Source: Tissierellales bacterium | GTDB lineage: Bacteria; Bacillota; Clostridia; Tissierellales; Sedimentibacteraceae | Length of the DNA: 64,000 nt | NCBI GenBank assembly: GCA_018433765.1 | Contig: JAHDQO010000008.1 | Span: 1 to 64,000 of the forward strand | Direction of reading: 5' to 3' | In this document: piece by piece, positions 7,589-17,438 of the stretch | Layout of the letters: each line of letters begins with the position of its first letter | How positions within the stretch are numbered: position 1 is the stretch's first letter | The notes under the pieces: generated by a model | Told to the model about the DNA's origin: nothing | Database searches by the model: none | What the model saw: the letters and a program-made list of their open reading frames with translations, nothing else | Translations under genes and position numbers: made by a program

Positions 7589-8824
7589 TTGTTGTTAAGA
7601 AAAATATACTATAGGATTTATCAAAAGATTGTAAAAATAGTAACATTATTTCTTAGATTTCCAGAGCCTGATATTATTTCAGGATCAGACAGTGTAAAAA
7701 AATTACCTCAAACAATTAAAACTAAACAAGTAAAGAAAGTATTGGTTGTCACAGATGAAGTTTTACTAAAATTAGGATTACTAGAAGGTCTGTTTCAATC
7801 ATTAAAGGAAAATGAAGTTGAGTATATAGTATTTGATGGCGTTAGACCTAATCCAACTATTCAAAATATTGAAGATGCTAATAAAATGTATATAAATGAA
7901 AATTGTGAAGGGATTATAGCTTTTGGAGGCGGCTCTTCTATGGATTGTGCTAAAGTAGCTGCTGCAAGAGTAAGTAATCCAAATAAGTTAGTCAGTAAGA
8001 TGAGAGGTTTATTTAGAGTTAGAAAGAAGTTACCTCCCTTGTTTGCAGTTCCCACTACTTCAGGAACAGGTTCTGAAACAACAATAGCTGCTGTAGTTAC
8101 TGATCCATCTACGCATGAAAAATATGCAATAAATGATTTAAAACTTGTGCCAATAGCTGCAGTATTAGACCCTAATTTAATGACAGGTTTACCTAAACAT
8201 ATAACCTCTACAACAGGAATGGATGCATTGACACATGCAGTTGAAGCATACATAGGTTCATATGGTACCAAATTTACTAATAATATGGCTGAGAAAGCAA
8301 CAAAACTAATATTTGAAAATATAGAAAGAGTATATAAAAACGGAAAAGATATAGAAGCAAGAAATAATATGGCTTTGGCATCTTATTATGGAGGAGCAGC
8401 TTTTACAAGAGCATATGTTGGTTATGTGCACGCTATAGCACATACTCTTGGTGGATTGTACGGAGTGCCTCATGGATTAGCTAATGCTGTTATATTGCCG
8501 TATGTTTTAGAATATTCAAGAAAAAATGCTTGTGAAAAACTTGCTAAGCTTGCTGTAGCTGGGGGAATTGGAACTGAAAATGAGACAAATGAAGAGCTTT
8601 CTATAAGATTTATTAATCATATTAGAAAGTTAAATGAAAATATGGATATACCTACAAAGATTAAAGAAATAAAAGAAGAAGATATTACATTAATAGCTAA
8701 AAGGGCTTTAAAAGAAGCTAATCCTAATTATCCTGTACCAACTCTTATGCTTCAAAAAGATTGTGAAGGAATAGTAAGAAAGCTTGTAATAAGTGCTGAA
8801 CAAAATTCAGTATCTCAATTATAG
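7589..8824 (+). CDS. Iron-containing alcohol dehydrogenase
   Basis: This is a group III (iron-dependent) alcohol dehydrogenase that interconverts aldehydes or ketones and alcohols with NAD(P)H. The cytoplasmic product is 411 residues long. Family motifs are clear: the nucleotide-binding GGGSSMDCAK, TTSGTGSE, and metal ligands in MDALTHAVEAY (Asp and His) and HAIAHTLGGLYGVPHG (two His). The N-terminus has an extra basic segment of about 25 residues before the first strand, a form seen in several clostridial homologues. The start is TTG, either 7589 or 7592; both follow AAGGAGG at 7577-7583. Placed before AOR, it may recycle aldehydes to alcohols. The exact substrate cannot be read from sequence. 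Confidence 0.9.
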   Translation: MLLRKIYYRIYQKIVKIVTLFLRFPEPDIISGSDSVKKLPQTIKTKQVKKVLVVTDEVLLKLGLLEGLFQSLKENEVEYIVFDGVRPNPTIQNIEDANKMYINENCEGIIAFGGGSSMDCAKVAAARVSNPNKLVSKMRGLFRVRKKLPPLFAVPTTSGTGSETTIAAVVTDPSTHEKYAINDLKLVPIAAVLDPNLMTGLPKHITSTTGMDALTHAVEAYIGSYGTKFTNNMAEKATKLIFENIERVYKNGKDIEARNNMALASYYGGAAFTRAYVGYVHAIAHTLGGLYGVPHGLANAVILPYVLEYSRKNACEKLAKLAVAGGIGTENETNEELSIRFINHIRKLNENMDIPTKIKEIKEEDITLIAKRALKEANPNYPVPTLMLQKDCEGIVRKLVISAEQNSVSQL

Positions 8825-8962
8825 ATAAAAGTAAAAAGTGTAAGTTATAATAATAAATTAAAAATTTTGAAAGATAATATATTAACTTTTTAACTTAAGA
8901 ATTATTTATATAAATGATTTAATATTCTCGTTAATAAAAGGTTAAGTAAAAGGAGTTTAGAA

Positions 8963-10948
8963 ATGAAAGGTTACATTGGTAAAATTCTAATAGTAGATTT
9001 AACAACAGGTATCTTTGAAGAACAGAAAGTTGAAGATGAAGTATATGAAAATTTACTATCAGGTGTAGGGTTAGGAGCGTATACACTTTATAAGAATATA
9101 CCTAAAGGGGCAGACCCGTTAGGACCAGATAATATGCTTGGTTTTGTTAGTGGATTATTAACAGGTACAGGAAGCGTAATGACTGGTAGATGGATGGTTG
9201 TATGTAAATCTCCACTAACTGGTGGTTGGGGGGATTCAAATTGTGGAGGTACATTTTCACCTGCAATAAAACAATGCGGTTATGATGGTATTTTTTTTAA
9301 AGGAATCTCTGTATTCCCCGTATATTTATATGTAGATAATAGAGGAGCAGAACTTAGAGATGCTTCATACTTGTGGGGAAAAGATGCAGTTGAAACAGAA
9401 GATATACTAGAGAAAGAGAATTGGAACAATAAAAAACCTGCAATAGCTGTTATAGGCACTTCTTCTGAAAAAAAATCATTAATATCAGGTATATGTAATG
9501 ATAGAGGGCGTATTGCTGCAAGGTCTGGTGTTGGTGCTGTAATGGGTTCGAAAAGATTAAAAGCAGTAGTTTTAGCAGGTTCAAAACCTATAAAATGTCA
9601 TGATCCTAAAACGGTAAAGAAATATAGTAAAGAGTTCAGTAAAAAAATAAAGAAAACAAATATGCCTCAAATTATGACTGGCAGGATGCTTCCACTCATG
9701 GGAAAGGCATTAACTATCCCTAAAAATATTATACCAATAGATGGTATTGTTAGTGCTAGTATGATGAAAAAATGGGGTACGGGGTTTGGAAATACCATGG
9801 GCATGTATAATGGTGATGACCCTATAAAAAACTGGGCAGGATCAGTGGTAGATTATGATAAATCATATTACAATAATGTTAATCCTGACAAAGTTCTAAA
9901 AAGAGAATATAAAAAATATCACTGCTATTCGTGTGTCATAGGCTGCGGCGGAGTATGTGATATAAAAGGTATTGGAAATGGAGAATTTACACATACACAT
10001 AAACCTGAATATGAAACAGTAAATGCTTTTGGTGCTTTACTTATGAATAAAGATTTAGAATCAATATTTTATATAAATGAATTATTAAATAGGGCTGGAA
10101 TGGACAGTATATCAGCTGGAAACACAATTGCTTATGCAATCGAGTGTTATGAAAATGGACTTATAACAAAAGATGATACAGACGGACTGGAATTAACATG
10201 GGGTAATGCTGAAGCAATAGTAGAACTTGTGAAAAGAATGATAGCAAGACAAGGATTTGGAGATGTTTTAGCAGATGGAGTAAAAGTAGCTGTTAAAAAA
10301 ATAGGAGAAGAGACAAGTAAGTATGCAATGCACGCAGGAGGTCAAGAACCGGGAATGCACGACCCTAGGATGGATCCAGCTTTAGGAGTACATTACAGTG
10401 CTGATCCTACTCCCGGAAGGCATACAGTTGGTGCTTTTGGATATTATAACTATATGCATTTATGGACAAAAGTTTCATGGGTACCTAAATTAAAATTATC
10501 AACACCAAAAAAAGTAGAATTTGAAGCTTCTGATAGAAATGGAATAATTACAATGGCTAATAGCTGTATTAAGCAAATATTAGATGGTTCCGGAGGATGT
10601 TTATTTGCAATGATTTCAGGTGTACATAACTGGAAAATTTTCGAATGGCTTAATGCTGCAACAGGTTGGGATAAAACTCCAGACGAATATATGATAATAG
10701 GAAAGAGAATGCAAACATTAAGACAGATGTTTAATATACGTGAAGGAATAAATCCTATCGATTTCAAAATAAAAGATAGAATAGCAGGAAGACCTCCGTT
10801 AAAAGAAGGACCATTAAAAGGTAAAACTTTACCTATTGAAGGTATGATACAAAAACATTGGGAACACTTTGGATGGAATCCTGAAACTGGAGTACCTACA
10901 GAAGAAACTATTGAAGAATTGGGTTTGGATGAATTACTAAATAATTAA
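8963..10948 (+). CDS. aor: Aldehyde:ferredoxin oxidoreductase (tungsten type)
   Basis: Members oxidise aldehydes to acids, or reduce acids, with ferredoxin, using a tungsto-bis-molybdopterin centre and one [4Fe-4S] cluster in the cytoplasm. The 661-residue protein has the N-terminal MKGYIGKILIVDLTTG signature and the cofactor-binding glycine-rich stretch near residues 65-110. Cluster ligands are C321-x2-C324-x3-C328, with the distal Cys at C546 in GSGGCLFAM. The motif DPALGVHYSADPTPGRHT is also conserved. ATG at 8963 follows AAAAGGAG. A ferredoxin gene lies downstream, and a cofactor-sensing riboswitch 0.7 kb further on ties the region to tungsten or molybdenum. The preceding 138-base gap holds only A-rich sequence resembling the aaaagt-type repeat arms. 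Confidence 0.93.
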   Translation: MKGYIGKILIVDLTTGIFEEQKVEDEVYENLLSGVGLGAYTLYKNIPKGADPLGPDNMLGFVSGLLTGTGSVMTGRWMVVCKSPLTGGWGDSNCGGTFSPAIKQCGYDGIFFKGISVFPVYLYVDNRGAELRDASYLWGKDAVETEDILEKENWNNKKPAIAVIGTSSEKKSLISGICNDRGRIAARSGVGAVMGSKRLKAVVLAGSKPIKCHDPKTVKKYSKEFSKKIKKTNMPQIMTGRMLPLMGKALTIPKNIIPIDGIVSASMMKKWGTGFGNTMGMYNGDDPIKNWAGSVVDYDKSYYNNVNPDKVLKREYKKYHCYSCVIGCGGVCDIKGIGNGEFTHTHKPEYETVNAFGALLMNKDLESIFYINELLNRAGMDSISAGNTIAYAIECYENGLITKDDTDGLELTWGNAEAIVELVKRMIARQGFGDVLADGVKVAVKKIGEETSKYAMHAGGQEPGMHDPRMDPALGVHYSADPTPGRHTVGAFGYYNYMHLWTKVSWVPKLKLSTPKKVEFEASDRNGIITMANSCIKQILDGSGGCLFAMISGVHNWKIFEWLNAATGWDKTPDEYMIIGKRMQTLRQMFNIREGINPIDFKIKDRIAGRPPLKEGPLKGKTLPIEGMIQKHWEHFGWNPETGVPTEETIEELGLDELLNN

Positions 10949-11077
10949 AGGAGCAACTAGTAACGAGAAACGAGGAACATGGAAGCTTTACTACCGTAAA
11001 GCAAACAAATCTAAGAATGTGTGTCATTCTGAGGGATAGTCGAAGAATCTTGTGTGGAAGTAAGCAGTAAACTGCTT
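10949..11077. repeat. Composite palindromic repeats
   Basis: A left arm (AACTAGTAACGAGAAACGAG) leads to the core hairpin GCTTTAC-TACC-GTAAAGC at 10985-11002. A different unit follows near 11021-11051, GTCATTCTGAGGGATAGTCG then AAGAATC, which recurs at about 53808. AAGCAGT-AA-ACTGCTT at 11062-11077 is a short inverted repeat just before the ferredoxin gene. Confidence 0.65.
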
Positions 11078-11099: not shown

Positions 11100-11309
11100 A
11101 TGGAGAAGAAAAAACCAATTATAAATTATAAAGAATGTATGGCATGTGGTATATGTGTGCAGGCATGCCCTTTCAGTTGTATAGACTTTGTTAAGATAAA
11201 TGTCAATAAAGATAAAAAAGCATATCCTGAACTAATTAATAATGGCAGATGTACTGGCTGTGGAATCTGCTCTAAAGAATGTCCTGTAGAAGCAATAGAA
11301 TTAAGATAA
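11100..11309 (+). CDS. 2[4Fe-4S] ferredoxin-like protein
   Basis: This small cytoplasmic electron carrier of 69 residues holds two clostridial cluster motifs, CMACGICVQACP and CTGCGICSKECP, with the final Cys of each followed by Pro. Between the two halves lies a Lys-rich insert, so it resembles ferredoxin-like subunits that accompany oxidoreductases. ATG at 11100 follows GGAGTG; the open frame could extend to TTG at 11076, but that lacks a ribosome site. It is probably the electron partner of the aldehyde oxidoreductase directly upstream, separated only by a repeat. This pairing is inferred from position. Confidence 0.88.
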   Translation: MEKKKPIINYKECMACGICVQACPFSCIDFVKINVNKDKKAYPELINNGRCTGCGICSKECPVEAIELR

Positions 11310-11560
11310 AAGTTAAAAGATAAAAGTGAAAAGTTATGGTAGTTTTACTAATGTCTTTTTTCGTGCGAAGCACATTTTCCGTGTTCTTCCATGTTCTTCC
11401 GTGGTTAAATTTGATAAAAATAAATTTACGAATTATATGAGTAAATTAACCATATTACTCGTTGCTCATTACTAGTTCTTCGTTTATCTAAGTGCGAAGC
11501 ACAATTCTGTGTTTTTCCGTGTTCTTTCGTGCTTTTCTGTGGTAAATAAAATTAAAAATA
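11310..11560. repeat. Array of three repeat types
   Basis: This 250-base stretch has no gene. It begins with arms of the AAAAGATAAAAGTGAAAAG type, then GTGCGAAGCAC at about 11364 with CCGTGTTCTTCC-type words, then a long ATTACTCGTTGCTCATTACT arm, and again AGTGCGAAGCACA near 11490 with CTGTGTTTTTCCGTGTTC. It looks like successive insertions of palindromic units into each other. Confidence 0.65.
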
Positions 11561-11570
11561 TCAATTTTAC

Positions 11571-11599
11571 TTGTAAATAACATATTTTTTTGCTAAAAT
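11571..11599 (+). promoter_or_regulatory. Promoter of the riboswitch operon
   Basis: TTGTAA (11571-11576) and TAAAAT (11594-11599) are 17 bases apart. The predicted start near 11606 is just upstream of the riboswitch aptamer. A TTGACA at 11599-11604 has no -10 at proper distance and is not favoured. Confidence 0.45.
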
Positions 11600-11620
11600 T
11601 GACATGTAATTTAAATATGT

Positions 11621-11716
11621 TGCTCCGATCTGTTTTTTCCTAAGGGGTTAAACTATGGGAAACAGACGATAGGGTATATTTGGAAACGATTATGCCTCCC
11701 ATTTGGAAAGGAGATG
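11621..11716 (+). ncRNA. Molybdenum/tungsten cofactor riboswitch
   Basis: The sequence carries the hallmark end of the Moco RNA motif, GCCTCCCATTTGGAAAGGAG (11694-11713), and the expected pairings. These are CTCC 11623-11626 with GGAG 11710-11713 (closing stem), TCTGTTT 11629-11635 with AAACAGA 11660-11666, and ATGGG 11655-11659 with CCCAT 11698-11702. AGG/CCT plus GTATA/TATGC form the remaining arm, with a GGAAACGA-type conserved loop. Rfam describes such RNAs upstream of molybdenum-cofactor genes and tungsten-cofactor variants. Whether this copy senses molybdenum or tungsten cofactor cannot be decided by eye; the nearby AOR favours tungsten. Confidence 0.88.
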
Positions 11717-11738
11717 AAAAAGTAGAATTTAAATCTAT

Positions 11739-11763
11739 TCCATTGGGTGAATGGATTTTTTTT
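11739..11763 (+). terminator. Possible expression-platform terminator
   Basis: TCCATT (11739-11744) and AATGGA (11750-11755) form a weak six-pair stem with loop GGGTG, followed directly by eight T (11756-11763). The stem is short for an intrinsic terminator, but the T run and the position between aptamer and gene suit riboswitch control of transcription. Confidence 0.4.
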
Positions 11764-11773
11764 ATTTAAAATC

Positions 11774-12298
11774 ATGAAAAAAAGTGCATTTATTATTTTA
11801 TTGAGTATGTTGTTGTTAGTTTCATGTAGTACAAGCTTTGAAGAAACATATGTTAAACAAAAATATGATGACTGCAAAGTAGTTAGAAAATATAAAATTG
11901 ATAACAGTATCAATTCAGATGGATGCTGTATTGAAAATGCTATGTTAATAGAGAAAGATGGACAAAAGTTATTATATCAATTCGTAAAGACAACTGGTTT
12001 TAATGAAGACATTTATTTAATGACTTCTATAGATGTTCAGAATAATAAAGTTTATGAAGTTGATGTAATAGAACATTCAGAAACTGATGATTATGGTGGT
12101 TATGTTTCTGAAAATTGGTTTCTTGAAAGATTTGCAGGTAAGTTAGTGGATGTACCGTTAAAAACTGTAATTATAATAGACAGAGAGCCTAATGAAGTAG
12201 TTGCTATTACAGGAGCTACAATGACCAGTAAGGCAGTAGTAAGAGCAGTAAATTTATGTATGGAAAACTTCACTAAATTAAAAATGCAAAATAAATAA
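11774..12298 (+). CDS. FMN-binding lipoprotein
   Basis: The 174-residue product has a lipoprotein signal ending in LLLVSC (C18), so it should be anchored outside the membrane. The C-terminal part is an FMN-binding domain of the RnfG/NqrC type: HSETDDYGGYV followed by T146-GAT149, the site where ApbE-type transferases attach FMN to the final Thr. It is therefore a candidate extracytosolic flavin electron carrier. ATG at 11774 gives a clean signal peptide but has no ribosome site; GTG at 11747 is the alternative and lies inside the terminator-like hairpin. An eight-codon frame, ATG at 11751 to TGA at 11777, overlaps this start by ATGA and might couple translation. It is the first gene after the cofactor riboswitch. 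Confidence 0.85.
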   Translation: MKKSAFIILLSMLLLVSCSTSFEETYVKQKYDDCKVVRKYKIDNSINSDGCCIENAMLIEKDGQKLLYQFVKTTGFNEDIYLMTSIDVQNNKVYEVDVIEHSETDDYGGYVSENWFLERFAGKLVDVPLKTVIIIDREPNEVVAITGATMTSKAVVRAVNLCMENFTKLKMQNK

Positions 12299-12367
12299 AA
12301 ATTTAAAATGCAAAATTAAAAATAGAATTACAAATATAAATTTGGAAAGATTAATTAGGAGGAGAGT

Positions 12368-13504
12368 ATGAAAAAAAGGTTAAGCAGTTTATTGGTATTA
12401 GCAATTGTGGTATTATTAGTATTGGCTGGATGTTCAAATGCAAACAATGAACCTGCAGATGCTGATAACCAAGAACCTGTAAAAAGTGGTGATGATGTAG
12501 GAACTCCTGCTGGAGAGTTTAAAATTGTTGGTCTTGAAGGTGGGGATGTAGTGATAACTGCAGAAGAAATATATAAAATGGAATCAGCAACTGAAAAAAT
12601 GACTAATATTTCATCAAGTGGAGAAATTACAGAAGCAGAAGTAACAGGTGTAAAAATAGATACTATTTTAAGTAAATACAATGTTTCTCAGAAAGATTTT
12701 GAAGGTGTAAGATTTTATGCAGCAGATGGATATTCTATTATAGTACCAAAAGAAATACTTCAACAGAAAGAAATAATGTTGATTTACAAACAAGATGGTA
12801 AACCATTACATGAAAAACATATGCCTTTAAGAGTTGCAGTTCCTGACGAAAGATCTATGTATTGGGTTGGTAATGTTGCTGGAATGGAAATTGTTCAGGA
12901 GGAAATAATAAACATATCAAAGGTTACATTATTAGAATCCTCATATAGTCTTTTAACTCAAGAAGATTATACATATTATGAAACTGTAGATAAAGCAGTG
13001 AAAACAGAGGAGTTATTTGAAAAATTTGCTTCTGTTAAGGAAACAGACGAGATTTCAGCCAAATGTGTTGACGGACTAGATAAAAATGAAAAGAAAAATG
13101 TTTTTTTAACAGGGTATATCAAAATAACTGGTGAATATGCACCATTGTTTTTATCTCCGGAGCTTCCAAAAGGCATGCATATGAAAGAATTACTTTGGTT
13201 TAATAATGCAGAAAATGCTTTCTTTAGTATTGAACAAGGATTAGTAAAATATGCTGACGAATTAGTAACAATAGGAGAAGACACAGGTATTTTGCTGACA
13301 AGTATAGAAGATTCAGTAGGATTAGAAAAAGGAAATAAATATAAGTTAACAGCTGATGATGGATACAGCTTAGAAATTACTAGAGAAGACTTTGAAAAAG
13401 GTATGATCTATCCAAGAAAAAAAGGTGGATATAGTACAGTATTTGAAGGTCTTGAAGACAATACAAAAGTTAAAGGCATATTAAGCATAGAAGTTACAGA
13501 ATAA
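12368..13504 (+). CDS. Lipoprotein with two molybdopterin-binding-like domains
   Basis: The signal peptide ends in LVLAGC (C22), followed by an acidic linker. Residues about 55-190 resemble the sulfite-oxidase-type molybdopterin-binding fold: an EEIYKM strand, a VTGVKIDTIL segment, a GVRFYAADGYSIIVP strand, then DGKPLHEKHMPLRVAVP and MYWVGNVAGMEI. A second, more diverged copy fills residues about 200-378. The Cys that coordinates molybdenum in sulfite oxidase is not evident in either copy. The protein may bind a cofactor without the usual ligand, or be a structural relative only. It follows the FMN-binding lipoprotein by 69 bases, has an AGGAGGAGAG ribosome site, and is probably in the same riboswitch-controlled transcript. 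Confidence 0.75.
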   Translation: MKKRLSSLLVLAIVVLLVLAGCSNANNEPADADNQEPVKSGDDVGTPAGEFKIVGLEGGDVVITAEEIYKMESATEKMTNISSSGEITEAEVTGVKIDTILSKYNVSQKDFEGVRFYAADGYSIIVPKEILQQKEIMLIYKQDGKPLHEKHMPLRVAVPDERSMYWVGNVAGMEIVQEEIINISKVTLLESSYSLLTQEDYTYYETVDKAVKTEELFEKFASVKETDEISAKCVDGLDKNEKKNVFLTGYIKITGEYAPLFLSPELPKGMHMKELLWFNNAENAFFSIEQGLVKYADELVTIGEDTGILLTSIEDSVGLEKGNKYKLTADDGYSLEITREDFEKGMIYPRKKGGYSTVFEGLEDNTKVKGILSIEVTE

Positions 13505-13576
13505 AAACTAGTTATTTATAGTTTAAAAAGCTATTAAATATAAAATAAAAAGAAAGTGAAAGGAAGAATATTAAAC

Positions 13577-14101
13577 ATGAAAAAGATAGTTAGTTTATTA
13601 TTAGTTTTAATGTTAGTTTTATCTTTAGGAGTTGGTTGCACAACAGACCAGCCTGCTGATGAACCTGATCAAGAACAAAATCAAGATGCAGACCAAGAAC
13701 AAGACCAAGATGCAGATCAAGAACCAGCAAAAGCTGAATTTAGTATTACCGTAAATGGTACAGAGTTTACAAATGAAAATGCAAAAGATTTAGAATTTGT
13801 AACAGTTACTATTAATAAAAAAGATAAAGACGATAATTTAAAGCCTGGACAATGGCAGGGCTATAGAATTAAAGATATATTAGAAGCAGCAGGTGTAGAA
13901 GAATACACTTCAGTAAAGGTAGCTGCAGCTGATGAATTTAGTGTTGATTTAACAAAAGATGTAGTAGATGCAGAAACAACTTTACTTGGCTTTATCAAAG
14001 ATGGAGAAGCTTTAAGTGAAGATGAATCACCAAGATTAACTGTTGAAGGTGAAGGATCAAGCGTTTGGATTAAAGGAGTAGCGTCAATAGAAACAAAATA
14101 A
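13577..14101 (+). CDS. Lipoprotein with one molybdopterin-binding-like domain
   Basis: The 174-residue protein has a signal peptide ending in LGVGC (C21), then a low-complexity linker of Asp, Gln, Glu and Ala (about residues 24-52) that would hold the domain away from the membrane. The remaining 120 residues repeat the pattern of the preceding gene: a FVTVTINKK strand, WQGYRIKDILEAAG, SVKVAAADEFSVDL, DESPRLTVEGEGSS and VWIKGVASIE. This matches the sulfite-oxidase-like fold as a single, shortened copy. No Cys remains in the mature protein except the lipidated one, so no metal ligand is visible. ATG at 13577 is preferred over GTG at 13556 because it begins the signal peptide. Co-transcription with its neighbours is inferred. 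Confidence 0.72.
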   Translation: MKKIVSLLLVLMLVLSLGVGCTTDQPADEPDQEQNQDADQEQDQDADQEPAKAEFSITVNGTEFTNENAKDLEFVTVTINKKDKDDNLKPGQWQGYRIKDILEAAGVEEYTSVKVAAADEFSVDLTKDVVDAETTLLGFIKDGEALSEDESPRLTVEGEGSSVWIKGVASIETK

Positions 14102-14163
14102 ATTTAAATAAAAGTAAAAAGTTAGTTTTACAAAATATTTATAAGAAGAAAGGATAGTTGGAC

Positions 14164-15609
14164 ATGTCAAAAAAAATAGCGATGTCGTTTTTGACTGCTC
14201 TTATTATCCTTTTTCTCTTTACTTCATGTAATAAAGAACAAGATATATTTTCTTCTGTAATCATAACGGGTGATGTGGAGAATCAATATACATTAGAAAG
14301 TTATAGTGAAGAATTCGAATGGAATCAAATAGAGAAAAAGGATATAAAATATAAGGGCGTTTTATTAAAAGATTTAGTAAATAAAAGTAATCCTATCAGT
14401 GACAATTTTTCTATACTATTAATGGGACAAGATGGGTTAATGGCAAAATTAAATGGAAATGAATTGGATGACTGTTATATAGTAAACAATGAAAAAGGCT
14501 GGTGTTCAGTTACATTTAATCATCCTGTTAATTCAAATATAAAAGGCTTAGAAAGTATAGTTATAATTAATAACATAGATGACATAGATAATTCAGTAAA
14601 TATTATTAGCAATAATAAAAATATTTTTTCAATTACACCGGGAAATTTCTTATTAACAAATTATAAAATATATAATTATCTTGATGGTGAAACATCAGTA
14701 GACCAAAAAAATGATATAATGTTGTACAAGCAAAAGAAAGTCATACCTTTAAATGAAATCACTAATAATATAAATAGAATTTTGGTAATGACAAGAGATG
14801 GAGGATATTATTATTTATCAAAGTCAGGATATATTCAACTTGATGGAAATAAAATAAATTTTATTATTCCTGAAGAAAGAATAATATATAATGATATTGT
14901 TGGAGTTCTTATTAATCCACCTCAAACAACTGTAATGGATACTTATTACGATGCAGAATATTACCTTAAAAAAAATGAAAAAGTAATGATTGTTTTTGTA
15001 GATGGTTTTGGATATCATCAATATAAATACGCTATGGAAAATGGATATGCTCCTTATTTGACAAGTCTGAATGAAGCAAAAATTGCGAACACTATTTATA
15101 GACCAGTTACAAATGCAGGGTATGCTGCCATGATAACAGGCAAACCACCTAAAGAAAACGGTATAAAAGATAGAGATGGAAGGCAGCCTTTAGTACCTAC
15201 CATATTTGAAAGGGCATTAGAGTTGGATAAAAAAGCTATGTTGGTAGAATCATATTCATGTGCAGTTAATACAGGTATAACTCCAATATTAAGCTTAGAT
15301 GATGATGGAGATAAGTATACAGATGATGAAGTTTTTGACAATGCAAAAATAGCTTTAAAGGAAAATCCAGATTTAATTTTAGTTCATTTTCACGGAGTAG
15401 ATGATGCAGGACATTGTTTTGGAGATTTTGATAATAGGACAATGGAAAAAATAAAAGAAGTAGATAGTTATGTAAAGGAAATAAGTTCAAATTGGGATGG
15501 AAAGATAATACTAACTGCTGATCACGGAATGCATAAAAAAGGTGACGAAGGTACACATGGATTCTTTAGATATGAAGATATAATTATTCCATATTTAATA
15601 TATGATTAA
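14164..15609 (+). CDS. Lipoprotein, pterin-fold domain fused to phosphodiesterase
   Basis: The signal peptide ends in LFTSC (C22). Residues about 35-150 resemble the molybdopterin-like domain of the two genes before it (YKGVLLKDLV, NFSILLMGQDGLMAKL, IKGLESIVIIN). Residues about 275-481 form an alkaline-phosphatase-superfamily (type I phosphodiesterase) domain. It has metal site VDGFG, a putative nucleophile Thr in RPVTNAGYAAMITG, then HFHGVDDAGH, TADHGMH and GTHG supplying the remaining Asp and His ligands. Such enzymes cleave phosphodiesters or phosphomonoesters outside the cell. The substrate is unknown; the fusion suggests a phosphorylated pterin or nucleotide. ATG at 14164 is chosen over TTG at 14158 by ribosome-site spacing. 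Confidence 0.78.
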   Translation: MSKKIAMSFLTALIILFLFTSCNKEQDIFSSVIITGDVENQYTLESYSEEFEWNQIEKKDIKYKGVLLKDLVNKSNPISDNFSILLMGQDGLMAKLNGNELDDCYIVNNEKGWCSVTFNHPVNSNIKGLESIVIINNIDDIDNSVNIISNNKNIFSITPGNFLLTNYKIYNYLDGETSVDQKNDIMLYKQKKVIPLNEITNNINRILVMTRDGGYYYLSKSGYIQLDGNKINFIIPEERIIYNDIVGVLINPPQTTVMDTYYDAEYYLKKNEKVMIVFVDGFGYHQYKYAMENGYAPYLTSLNEAKIANTIYRPVTNAGYAAMITGKPPKENGIKDRDGRQPLVPTIFERALELDKKAMLVESYSCAVNTGITPILSLDDDGDKYTDDEVFDNAKIALKENPDLILVHFHGVDDAGHCFGDFDNRTMEKIKEVDSYVKEISSNWDGKIILTADHGMHKKGDEGTHGFFRYEDIIIPYLIYD

Positions 15610-15610
15610 A

Positions 15611-15812
15611 TGTGCTGCGCAATTTAATAAACGAGGAACTAGAAATGAGAAACTATTAATATGGTCTTAATAAACGAGAAACTAGAAATGAGTAACGAGC
15701 AACAAGGTTAATTTACTCATTTAATTCGTAAATTTATTTTATAATTAAATGTTTTACGGAGTAAAACTTCCATGTTACTAGTTATTAGTTATTAGTTTTT
15801 CGTTCAATTTTG
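15611..15812. repeat. Palindromic repeats with heptad arms
   Basis: GTGC-TGC-GCA at 15612 is a remnant of the second core type. It is followed by two left arms (AACGAGGAACTAGAAATGAG and similar), an ATTTACTCATTTAATTCGTA segment, a core hairpin in reverse orientation GTTTTAC-GGA-GTAAAAC (15751-15767), and a right arm ATGTTACTAGTTATTAG and onward. No gene is present. Confidence 0.7.
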
Positions 15813-15828
15813 GAAGGAGTTGATTTTG

Positions 15829-16578
15829 ATGAAGGTGTTATCAGTATATGGGTATACAGGGTCGGGGAAAACAACTGTAGTTGAAACGTTGATAAAAGGC
15901 TTGAGAGCAAAGAGATATTCGGTAGGAAGTATTAAAGAGATACACTTTGAAGAATTTGCTATAGATACTCCGGGTACTAATACTTATAGGCACAGAGAGG
16001 CAGGTTCACAACTGGTCAGTGCAAGAGGTATGAAAGAAACTGATATTCTTTATGATGAAAAGTTGAAATTAACAGATATCTTAAAACATTATCACCATGA
16101 ATATGTAATATGTGAAGGGGTAACTGATTATAATCTACCTAAAATTTTAGCAGCCAAATCAGTTGATGAACTAGAGAAAAGATGGGAAAGAGGTATATTT
16201 GCTGTTTCTGGTGTTATTGCTGAAACATTAAACGAATATAAGGGAGTACCAGTAATAAATGCTTTGAAAGAACCAGAAAAACTTATTAATTTAGTTGAAG
16301 AAAAAGTATTTGAACTGCTGCCAGATGCTCCAATAGAATGCTGTTCAGCGTGTGGATATGACTGCAGAACATTAGCAGAAAAAATATTAAAGGGTGAAGC
16401 CAAAAGAGAAGATTGCGTGCAGACAAAATCAAAAGTAAAATTATATATAAATGATGAACCTATACAAATGGTACCTTTTGTTGAGAATATTCTGAAAAGT
16501 ACATGTTTAGGTTTGATTAGTCAATTTGAAGGATATGAAGATGAGAGTAGTATTAGAATAGAGATTAATAATAATTAA
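15829..16578 (+). CDS. mobB: MobB-like GTP-binding protein with Cys-rich C-terminus
   Basis: MobB proteins bind GTP and assist maturation of the molybdopterin guanine dinucleotide form of the cofactor. The N-terminal half (about 1-160) has the P-loop G8-YTGSGKT and the conserved segment with DTPGTNTYRHREAGS. The last 85 residues are not part of classical MobB: they carry C171, C172, C175, C179 and C196, a spacing that could hold an Fe-S cluster or zinc, followed by INDEPIQMVPFVENIL. The start is ATG 15829, nine bases after GGAAGGAG; a TTG at 15820 lies inside that site. The neighbours are cofactor-related lipoproteins and a cofactor riboswitch, which supports the assignment. Confidence 0.85.
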   Translation: MKVLSVYGYTGSGKTTVVETLIKGLRAKRYSVGSIKEIHFEEFAIDTPGTNTYRHREAGSQLVSARGMKETDILYDEKLKLTDILKHYHHEYVICEGVTDYNLPKILAAKSVDELEKRWERGIFAVSGVIAETLNEYKGVPVINALKEPEKLINLVEEKVFELLPDAPIECCSACGYDCRTLAEKILKGEAKREDCVQTKSKVKLYINDEPIQMVPFVENILKSTCLGLISQFEGYEDESSIRIEINNN

Positions 16579-16760
16579 CCACGGAATTACACGGAAGGAC
16601 ACTGAAATGTGCTACGCACTAAAAAAAGATAAAATATAACTAACCACGGAGGACACGGAAGGACACTGAAATGTGCTTCGCACTTTATAAACGAGAAGTT
16701 AGTAATGAGTAACGAGTAACATGGATAATTTACTTATATTAATTCGTAAATTTTATATAG
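16579..16760. repeat. Repeats with CCACGG arms and GTGC core
   Basis: Two near-copies of a unit, ACCACGGA..ACACGGAAGGACACTGA leading to ATGTGCTACGCACT or ATGTGCTTCGCACT, lie at about 16579-16622 and 16643-16685. They are followed by an ACGAGAAGTTAGTAATGAGT arm of the other family. The arms are degenerate eight-base words. No gene is present. Confidence 0.7.
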
Positions 16761-16772
16761 GAATAAAATGAT

Positions 16773-17438
16773 ATGAAGATATTGAAAGAATTTATAAGCA
16801 AAAAAAATAATGTGTTTTTGATTGTTGATGAAGATGATAAGAAATGCATTTATAAAAAATTTAGTTCTAAGGATAAATGTCATAGTGAAATATTATGTTT
16901 GGAAAACTTAAATATAGCTCAAGTAAATGTTCCTAGAATAATTAAAAAGGCTGATAATGCTTTGTTTTTAGAATATATAGAAGGCTGTAATTTATGTGAT
17001 TTCATAGACAATATGTTTTGTTATGATAGTTCTCAAATTTGTAATATAGCAGATATATTATCTAGTCACTTAATTAAGTTATATAGTACAAATTATTTTC
17101 AGAAAAATAATTATATTTTAAATGATGTTAATCTTAGAAATTTTATATTTTATAAAGACAAAATATACAGTATAGATTTTGAAGATATAAGAAAAGGTGA
17201 TTTGGAAGAAGATATTGCCGGCATAGTTTTTTATATTTTAACTAATAATCCACCATTTACAGAATGGAGAATAAAACTAGCAAAATGTTTTTATAATAAA
17301 ATCAATAGCTGTATCAATTTAAATAAAAATAAATCAATAAAATATGTTAACAATTGGATTAAAAAAATAGAAAAAAGAAGAAAATGTAAATTTACAGAAA
17401 TTCAAGTATCGCAGATTAACGATATCATATTTTTGTAA
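16773..17438 (+). CDS. Protein-kinase-like / phosphotransferase-fold protein
   Basis: The 221-residue product resembles a minimal kinase fold. It has a lysine in CIYKKF near residue 28, a Glu in HSEILCLENL, an ILNDVNLRNFIFY segment that matches the catalytic loop (Asp and Asn), and YSIDFEDIRKGD in place of the DFG metal-binding motif. The glycine-rich loop is weak. This pattern is closest to small RIO/aminoglycoside-phosphotransferase-like proteins. Whether it phosphorylates proteins, lipids or a small molecule is unknown. It lies between mobB and the fructosamine ABC genes with a weak AGGAA ribosome site; no operon partner can be assigned. Confidence 0.5.
   Translation: MKILKEFISKKNNVFLIVDEDDKKCIYKKFSSKDKCHSEILCLENLNIAQVNVPRIIKKADNALFLEYIEGCNLCDFIDNMFCYDSSQICNIADILSSHLIKLYSTNYFQKNNYILNDVNLRNFIFYKDKIYSIDFEDIRKGDLEEDIAGIVFYILTNNPPFTEWRIKLAKCFYNKINSCINLNKNKSIKYVNNWIKKIEKRRKCKFTEIQVSQINDIIFL

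Follow-up and report, generated by a model that had tools for sequence, protein, structure and literature searches.

The locus analyzed here raises the question why a riboswitch of the molybdenum/tungsten cofactor (Moco/Tuco) class should stand in front of a series of genes for surface lipoproteins. It is located in a stretch of 64,000 nucleotides from a Tissierellales bacterium (contig JAHDQO010000008.1, positions 1 to 64,000), here referred to as the window. Based on our analysis, the window probably carries one half, covering the extracytosolic and processing functions, of a system under riboswitch control that would scavenge and import a molybdopterin-type cofactor, most likely tungstopterin/Tuco or parts of it, with the importer half located elsewhere in the genome. 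The riboswitch and the genes of the cluster, named in the following by their start position, are:

11611–11729, + strand: Moco/Tuco riboswitch aptamer RF01055, P3-less (cmscan 65.9 bits, gathering score 36, E 1.2e-13)
11774–12298, + strand (open reading frame (ORF) 11747): lipoprotein binding flavin mononucleotide (FMN), RnfG/NqrC-like, motif TGATMT (Pfam FMN_bind 8e-14; lipobox LVSC)
12368–13504, + strand: lipoprotein, probably with three domains of the sulfite oxidase (SUOX) type, without the metal-ligand Cys (Pfam Oxidored_molyb 3e-10, above cut-off)
13577–14101, + strand (ORF 13556): small SUOX-like lipoprotein of 174 aa with a non-canonical lipobox (Pfam Oxidored_molyb 3.8e-5, 23.8 bits against a cut-off of 24)
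14164–15609, + strand (ORF 14158): lipoprotein, SUOX-like N-domain fused to a phosphodiesterase of the nucleotide pyrophosphatase/phosphodiesterase (NPP) type (Pfam Phosphodiest 5e-14; predicted model; profile comparison for the N-domain)
15829–16578, + strand (ORF 15820): MobB P-loop protein with a putative Fe-S domain (Pfam MobB, PF03205, 5e-20; FeS 3e-6)
16773–17438, + strand: APH/RIO/Bud32-like small kinase (Pfam RIO1 4e-5; NCBIfam Bud32 4e-6, below cut-off)

The first-pass annotation of this stretch had named the riboswitch, the FMN-binding lipoprotein, the fused phosphodiesterase and the subsequent MobB as well as an aldehyde:ferredoxin oxidoreductase (AOR) and a ferredoxin upstream, and all of these were recovered with Rfam or Pfam models. 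It had also described three proteins of the SUOX fold lacking the Cys. This was borne out by a structural model for the first domain of the 12368 protein, which carries Ser in place of Cys; for the 13577 protein and the N-domain of the 14164 protein the fold assignment comes from sequence and profile comparison. The energy-coupling factor (ECF) importer and the membership of the kinase were absent from that annotation.

RF01055 was the sole Rfam match over the gathering score within the window. The match spans model positions 1–135 with a full-model score over the threshold, and the positions of the P3 hairpin were unmatched. A chance match was rejected on the basis of the score and of Rfam confirmation of the RNA in loci of other genomes. 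As far as the available part of the paper of Regulski (2008, PMC2408646) goes, P3-less Moco RNAs are associated with Tuco-using organisms, and the paper mentions "other genes of unknown function" in an operon of S. wolfei that contains three of these RNAs. By analogy with these RNAs, which it resembles in its score above the gathering score and its P3-less form, the window aptamer presumably binds Moco/Tuco and controls the downstream genes. The cluster itself differs from that account, which does not use the word "lipoprotein" in its main text and, in the part available, does not mention an ECF importer.

The link to import is found outside the window. The genome to which the window belongs carries five RF01055 RNAs. 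On contig C7 one of them leads into genes for an ECF S component (EcfS; PF09819, 4e-16), a SUOX-type protein, two EcfA (one with PF00005, 5e-28, the second assigned by homology) and EcfT (PF02361, 1e-25), so that the ECF transporter gene set of S component, two EcfA and EcfT is complete at this locus. In relatives, both halves are present in one long operon. It starts with SUOX proteins anchored by S-layer homology domains, giant SUOX-like proteins (related to SUOX families in profile comparison but not matched to them in Pfam), a SUOX lipoprotein and a fused FMN-SUOX protein, the two halves of which correspond to the FMN lipoprotein and the SUOX lipoprotein of the window. The middle part encodes a NapH-like Fe-S/FMN membrane protein, a small SUOX lipoprotein, EcfS, the phosphodiesterase and an anchored SUOX protein, followed at the end by EcfA1, EcfA2, EcfT, MobB, the kinase and often an FAD/FMN reductase. 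The phosphodiesterase domain, MobB and kinase of the window are orthologous to genes that share an operon with EcfS, EcfA1, EcfA2 and EcfT in these relatives.

The operon was present in nine of the ten stretches of relatives examined and RF01055 in seven of these nine (all but L047 and L048). In total, the 12368 protein was matched in 13 of 27 family genomes, own genome counted. In genome G026 a match of 94 residues to this protein was the only one, and the stretch contained neither the operon nor RF01055. A cluster confined to the window was rejected on the basis of the relatives' operons and the second locus in the own genome.

The EcfS scored above the Pfam cut-off of the YkoE-type S components (PF09819) and differs from these in its neighbours and its riboswitch. 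Profile searches found neither a PDB relative (E 1) nor an NCBIfam match (E 0.001). YkoE, the studied member of this family, serves thiamine-type compounds. A comparable arrangement of a riboswitch before an S component and salvage enzymes is described for the QueK-QrtT-QueL queuosine operon of C. difficile (PMC11477304, available part), which differs in its ligand class and from which the present system is also set apart by its dedicated EcfA/A'/T and its large set of surface proteins.

The remaining three RF01055 RNAs of the own genome precede other genes. Contig C23 carries two of them. One (8157–8279 in L038) lies approximately 280 bases before an aldehyde dehydrogenase gene (8561–10180; PF00171, 5e-99), which possibly encodes a metal-free enzyme that is expressed under shortage of the tungsten (W) cofactor for the AOR. 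The other (7963–8080 in L037) precedes genes for a Big_5 protein, a FecB-like binding protein, a FecCD permease, an ATPase and a TiaS-like protein. The fifth RNA, on contig C30 (12100–12208 in L039), was the weakest with 47.7 bits and stands in front of genes for a ferredoxin-type protein and an AOR; the switch is thus also found on a cofactor-using enzyme.

These ABC transporter genes of the FecB/FecCD/ATPase type behind an RF01055 in the own genome would suit an ECF system importing tungstate, molybdate or a metal chelate, in which the SUOX-type domains bind the oxyanion or a metallophore. The same applies to an apparent FecBCD-type permease, ATPase and binding protein within the cluster at L137, read from the unscanned sequence. 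We nevertheless regard metal uptake as unlikely: the S component matches the family of the thiamine-type transporter YkoE, and a phosphodiesterase, a kinase and MobB would be superfluous for the import of an oxyanion. Metal uptake alone also cannot explain genomes with the aldehyde:ferredoxin oxidoreductase family (AFOR) in which MoaA, MoaC and MoeA were undetected, as described below.

Regarding the surface proteins, the largest amount of structural information was obtained for the 12368 protein of 378 aa. Its predicted model was built from 21 sequences (20 of the 25 listed relatives were used; L091, L094, L107, L108 and L117 were dropped) and reached a pLDDT of 85.8. Residues 44–180 matched PruR (7kom) with Z 15.6 and a root mean square deviation (rmsd) of 2.8 over 123 residues. 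This first domain also matched SoxC, sulfite oxidases and YedY (Z 10.8–15.6 across these and PruR), with the top matches tied within one Z unit. Residues 272–378 were related to domain 1 (96.4%) and residues 178–274 to the third domain (93.1%) by profile comparison, and therefore the protein probably consists of three SUOX-like repeats, the first one predicted by the model and the second and third from sequence. At the position of the Cys motif, defined by the sequence motif and not by a superposed pocket, Ser was found in 20 of 21 alignment rows. The sole Cys besides that of the lipobox is Cys233 in domain 2. The metal-ligand Cys of the sulfite-oxidase-family enzymes is thus lacking, and ordinary enzymes of the sulfite oxidase or YedY type were rejected for this reason. 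The 13577 protein is related to the 12368 protein by homology. It did not match the lipobox pattern, and its lipobox Cys is its sole Cys.

PruR (7kom, 7kp2, 7kos, 7rkb) is likewise exported, has the SUOX fold and lacks the Mo-ligand Cys; although tied with the sulfite oxidases and SoxC, it is the nearest solved structure. According to the accessible part of its description it binds tetrahydromonapterin (PMC13259868), and surface sensing of small reduced pterins without any cofactor uptake would be a conceivable function of the cluster too. This appears very improbable to us. PruR has dcpA adjoining, whereas among the ten neighbours scanned here no DcpA-like partner and no GGDEF/EAL gene were present; what recurs beside these genes is an importer, MobB and a kinase. 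Furthermore, PruR is a single domain of approximately 170 aa with Trp at the Cys-motif position, in contrast to Ser and several domains in the 378 aa of the 12368 protein, and the proteins of the cluster are lipid- or membrane-anchored, with genes near MobB and, in relatives, near the importer.

For the 14164 protein a model from 27 sequences (26 of the 27 listed relatives used, L101 dropped) with a pLDDT of 91.8 matched the NPP structure 2gsn with Z 21.4 and an rmsd of 2.1 over 200 residues, tied with phosphonoacetate hydrolase. D282, T318, D415, D455, H456 and H467 were conserved in 27 of 27 rows and H419 in 26 of 27; we take these residues to be the bimetal ligand set of the NPP family together with its Thr nucleophile. 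The enzyme departs from the NPP family in its lipoprotein anchor and in the SUOX-like domain to which it is fused. Its N-domain resembled the SUOX repeats 2 and 3 by profile comparison only (94.7% and 95.3%), and no clear fold was obtained in this way for residues 140–256. The fold searches barely probe those parts of both models that lie outside the best-matching domain.

MobB carries the Walker A motif GYTGSGKT of a P-loop domain and has orthologues in the operon of relatives, where those of the kinase adjoin MobB too. The phosphodiesterase and MobB genes are 210 bp apart, with repeats in the spacer. Imperfect repeats, with copies 69–90% like the reference, were seen in several spacers around the cluster (10941–10995, 11375–11560, 15623–15720 and 16589–16737).

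The FMN lipoprotein starts with an ATG at 11774 and matched NCBIfam rnfG with 2e-14, under the cut-off of that model. It combines the FMN_bind domain with TGATMT, a motif of the type S/T-G-A-T-x-S/T known from flavinylated FMN_bind proteins. Together with the NapH-like Fe-S/FMN membrane protein and the FAD/FMN reductase in the operons of relatives, this could indicate an extracytosolic redox module, in which flavinylated FMN proteins feed electrons to a pterin held by the SUOX domains and the ECF transporter moves flavin. ECF subunits of Listeria serve flavin traffic for flavinylation, according to the available part of that report (PMC9973259). Such a module is rather improbable in our view, since the Moco riboswitch, MobB and the link to W-enzymes would be ill-suited to a flavin importer. 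The redox genes also appear variable: no FMN-type gene was labelled in 21 of the 73 loci introduced below, which is weak evidence as the FMN profile consisted of one sequence, and in L077, L113, L114 and L119 such a gene was unlabelled despite 10 kb of upstream sequence and labelled ECF, SUOX and MobB genes.

To describe the distribution of the cluster, genome contigs were scanned for the S component with two conserved peptides as seeds. The scan resulted in 73 loci, by their titles mostly from Bacillota, and at least two genomes carried two loci. Many showed the typical combined order of riboswitch, FMN, SUOX, EcfS, phosphodiesterase, SUOX, EcfA-A-T, MobB and kinase. Neighbours were counted as same-strand genes with custom profiles at E 1e-4. 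Among all 73 loci, where short contigs depress the counts, SUOX-type genes were found in 71, EcfA1 in 60, EcfA2 in 62, EcfT in 59, MobB in 48 and the kinase and the phosphodiesterase in 41 each; 52 loci had a same-strand RF01055-like RNA upstream. In the 37 loci with at least 6 kb upstream and at least 7 kb downstream (the other 36 fell outside this subset), the respective numbers were 35, 33, 34, 32, 31, 24 and 24, with the riboswitch upstream on the same strand in 29. Rfam confirmed RF01055 in all 16 loci chosen among the custom-model matches; in L117 it is located downstream of EcfS.

Clusters in named organisms were those of Alkaliphilus spp., Sedimentibacter spp. and strain M8S5. The Alkaliphilus type (L062, L063, also L093 and L103) contains an FMN lipoprotein, a SUOX protein of approximately 370 aa, a SUOX-phosphodiesterase of approximately 500 aa, MobB and the kinase. 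Here the ECF genes are interleaved, and the small SUOX lipoprotein of the window is not found at the same place. The aptamer of strain M8S5 (L093) lacks P3 as in the window. In L097 (8183–8647), L094 (9384–9680), L085 (6096–6368) and L070 (3435–3713) tandem pairs or triplets of RF01055-like aptamers precede the cluster, of which the pair in L094 was confirmed by Rfam; tandem aptamers are described for S. wolfei in the accessible part of the work of Regulski (PMC2408646). The cluster at L137 encloses transporter genes and a TiaS-like gene, along with a DUF364 gene.

The neighbourhood of the window cluster already contains a probable user of the cofactor:

8963–10948, + strand: aldehyde:ferredoxin oxidoreductase, probable W-enzyme (Pfam AFOR_N 1e-66, AFOR_C 7e-96), with CxxCxxxC at residues 321–328
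11100–11309, + strand: ferredoxin with two 4Fe-4S motifs (Pfam Fer4 1e-14)

The association with such enzymes was determined in a class sample of 293 genomes of at least 90% completeness, including the own genome. AFOR_N was present in 43 of them (E 1e-20). The S component was found in 16 genomes at E 1e-6, with 14 strong matches (at least 185 bits) and two weak ones (84.5 and 106 bits). All strong matches were in AFOR-positive genomes (14 of 43, against none of the 250 AFOR-negative genomes; Fisher p 2.7e-13, a value that overstates the certainty because related genomes are not independent). Both weak matches fell into AFOR-negative genomes, and counting them changed p to 2.7e-11. With the own genome left out, p was 1.9e-12 for the strong matches and 1.6e-10 with the weak ones counted. 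At one weak locus (L135) a P3-containing RF01055 (87.6 bits) leads into an EcfS relative scoring 24.2 bits to PF09819 (cut-off 25.2). Next come a small protein that is faintly SUOX-like (23 bits against one custom profile, with no such signal in Pfam) and a MobA-like protein, and the cluster adjoins a PF00384 oxidoreductase. We count this variant in favour of the proposed system. The other weak locus (L136) gave no riboswitch-model match and no SUOX-labelled gene in the stretch examined.

A cell that has a pterin W-enzyme but can neither make the pterin nor insert the metal would be expected to depend on cofactor from outside. We searched for MoaC, MoaA (C-terminal domain) and MoeA in 51 genomes with the system, namely the own genome and those of 50 of the 73 loci. 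MoaC was detected in 32, MoaA in 31, MoeA in 32 and AFOR in 44 of these. In 17 genomes all three synthesis genes were undetected, and 12 of these 17 carried AFOR. The 12 include the complete chromosome CP118523.1 of Clostridiaceae bacterium M8S5 (L093) with a full cluster, and G032, which is 95% complete. In the class sample, MoaC was searched for in the 43 AFOR-positive genomes, MoeA in the five of them without MoaC and in the own genome, and MoaA in the own genome. MoaC and MoeA were not found in G125 (98% complete; seven AFOR matches and the full cluster L137) and G229 (92%). MoeA was also not found in G006 and G016 (97%), where MoaC was not searched for. As most carriers keep the synthesis genes, uptake would supplement their own synthesis in the majority of cases, whereas some carriers would obtain the cofactor in this way only.

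Several observations weigh against cofactor scavenging or limit it. With respect to synthesis, MoaE and MoaD lay outside the search, five of the 51 carriers had neither the three synthesis genes nor AFOR, and 11 of the 12 AFOR-positive genomes without detected synthesis genes are metagenome-assembled by title, with known completeness figures of 95, 87 and 88%. Genomes with synthesis genes carry the system as well: MoaC was present in 12 of the 14 strong carriers of the class sample, own genome among them, and its absence did not predict the system among AFOR-positive genomes (2 of 5 against 12 of 38, p 1.0; 2 of 5 against 11 of 37 with the own genome left out). G286 (100% complete) and G353 (98%) have an AFOR gene, and no MoaC, MoeA or EcfS was found in them; G265, without MoaC and EcfS, showed two MoeA matches. 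Concerning distribution, the 73-locus scan favours close relatives because it was seeded by two conserved peptides, and 21 of its loci had no riboswitch upstream (13 of these with less than 8 kb of upstream sequence). Finally, Moco is unstable outside proteins. The pocket of PruR is truncated according to the accessible part of that paper, which considers it unlikely to accommodate Moco (PMC13259868). In G286 and G353, with the AFOR gene on C89 and C166 (L139 and L140), respectively, there may be another cofactor source, or a pathway was missed.

None of the three rival explanations covers the importer, the phosphodiesterase, the kinase, MobB, the W-enzyme link and the missing synthesis genes all together. 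The first-pass annotation had left it at a module that binds, salvages or uses molybdopterin or tungstopterin; the ECF linkage, the W-enzyme association and the missing synthesis genes shift this towards salvage.

For the scavenging of a molybdopterin-type cofactor we propose six steps, ordered by analogy with other ECF salvage operons such as that for queuosine in C. difficile (PMC11477304, available part). When cofactor is scarce, the P3-less riboswitch would permit expression, with ligand and logic as suggested by Regulski (2008). The surface SUOX-type lipoproteins, which lack the enzyme-site Cys, would capture the pterin, and the NPP-type phosphodiesterase may trim a dinucleotide form by removing the nucleotide. 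The FMN lipoprotein, in relatives together with the NapH-like Fe-S/FMN membrane protein, could keep the pterin or its dithiolene reduced, and electrons might pass through FMN. A membrane-anchored SUOX-type protein would then pass the ligand to the YkoE-type S component, with EcfA-EcfA'-EcfT powering a putative import. Inside, the small kinase might restore a phosphate and MobB-FeS ready the cofactor for the enzymes.

Two elements flanking the aptamer are candidates for its expression signals:

11571–11599, + strand: promoter-like site just 5' of the aptamer, TTGTAA-17-TAAAAT, extended -10 (consensus scan only)
11731–11763, + strand: terminator-like hairpin (11731–11758) with U-run, possible expression platform (fold -8.1 kcal/mol)

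The promoter scan gave no excess in the region (43 sites against 40.8 expected by chance). The hairpin is located between the aptamer and the first gene, and its fold energy was unremarkable when compared to shuffles (z -1.25).

To our knowledge, Moco and Tuco are generally treated as cofactors that each user must make by itself, a view that follows from their instability outside proteins. Uptake has a precedent in principle in nematodes, which take up dietary Moco (PMC9793310, available part). In Proteobacteria some outer-membrane proteins of the type 11 secretion system (T11SS) may act in cobalamin or molybdopterin uptake, as stated in the accessible part of that work (PMC12282271). No bacterial ECF importer for molybdopterin or Moco appeared in titles and abstract starts among the matches listed, in a search that left most subscription journals and bioRxiv preprints outside. 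A term search did not find "molybdopterin" or "pterin" in the main text of two flavinylation surveys (PMC8238504, PMC11334425). The module was called previously undescribed in the first-pass annotation, and within the literature searched, among the matches listed, no description was found.

The cluster is real, widespread and riboswitch-led and is best read as a molybdopterin/tungstopterin acquisition system, a form of ECF-type cofactor uptake. We give an even chance to a wider reading, namely the uptake of the intact Mo/W cofactor. After the loss of MoaA, MoaC and even MoeA, which inserts the metal, bacteria would then run their W-enzymes on the cofactor of neighbours, and molybdopterin would be a shared "vitamin" like B12. 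Its capture would fall to the layer of SUOX-fold proteins and its import to the YkoE-type transporter, alongside a pyrophosphatase, a reducing chain and a kinase for repair, and P3-plus and P3-minus riboswitches would mark versions for the Mo- and the W-cofactor. If the ligand is confirmed, this would be the first importer for this cofactor known to us, and it would offer a handle for delivering or blocking the cofactor.

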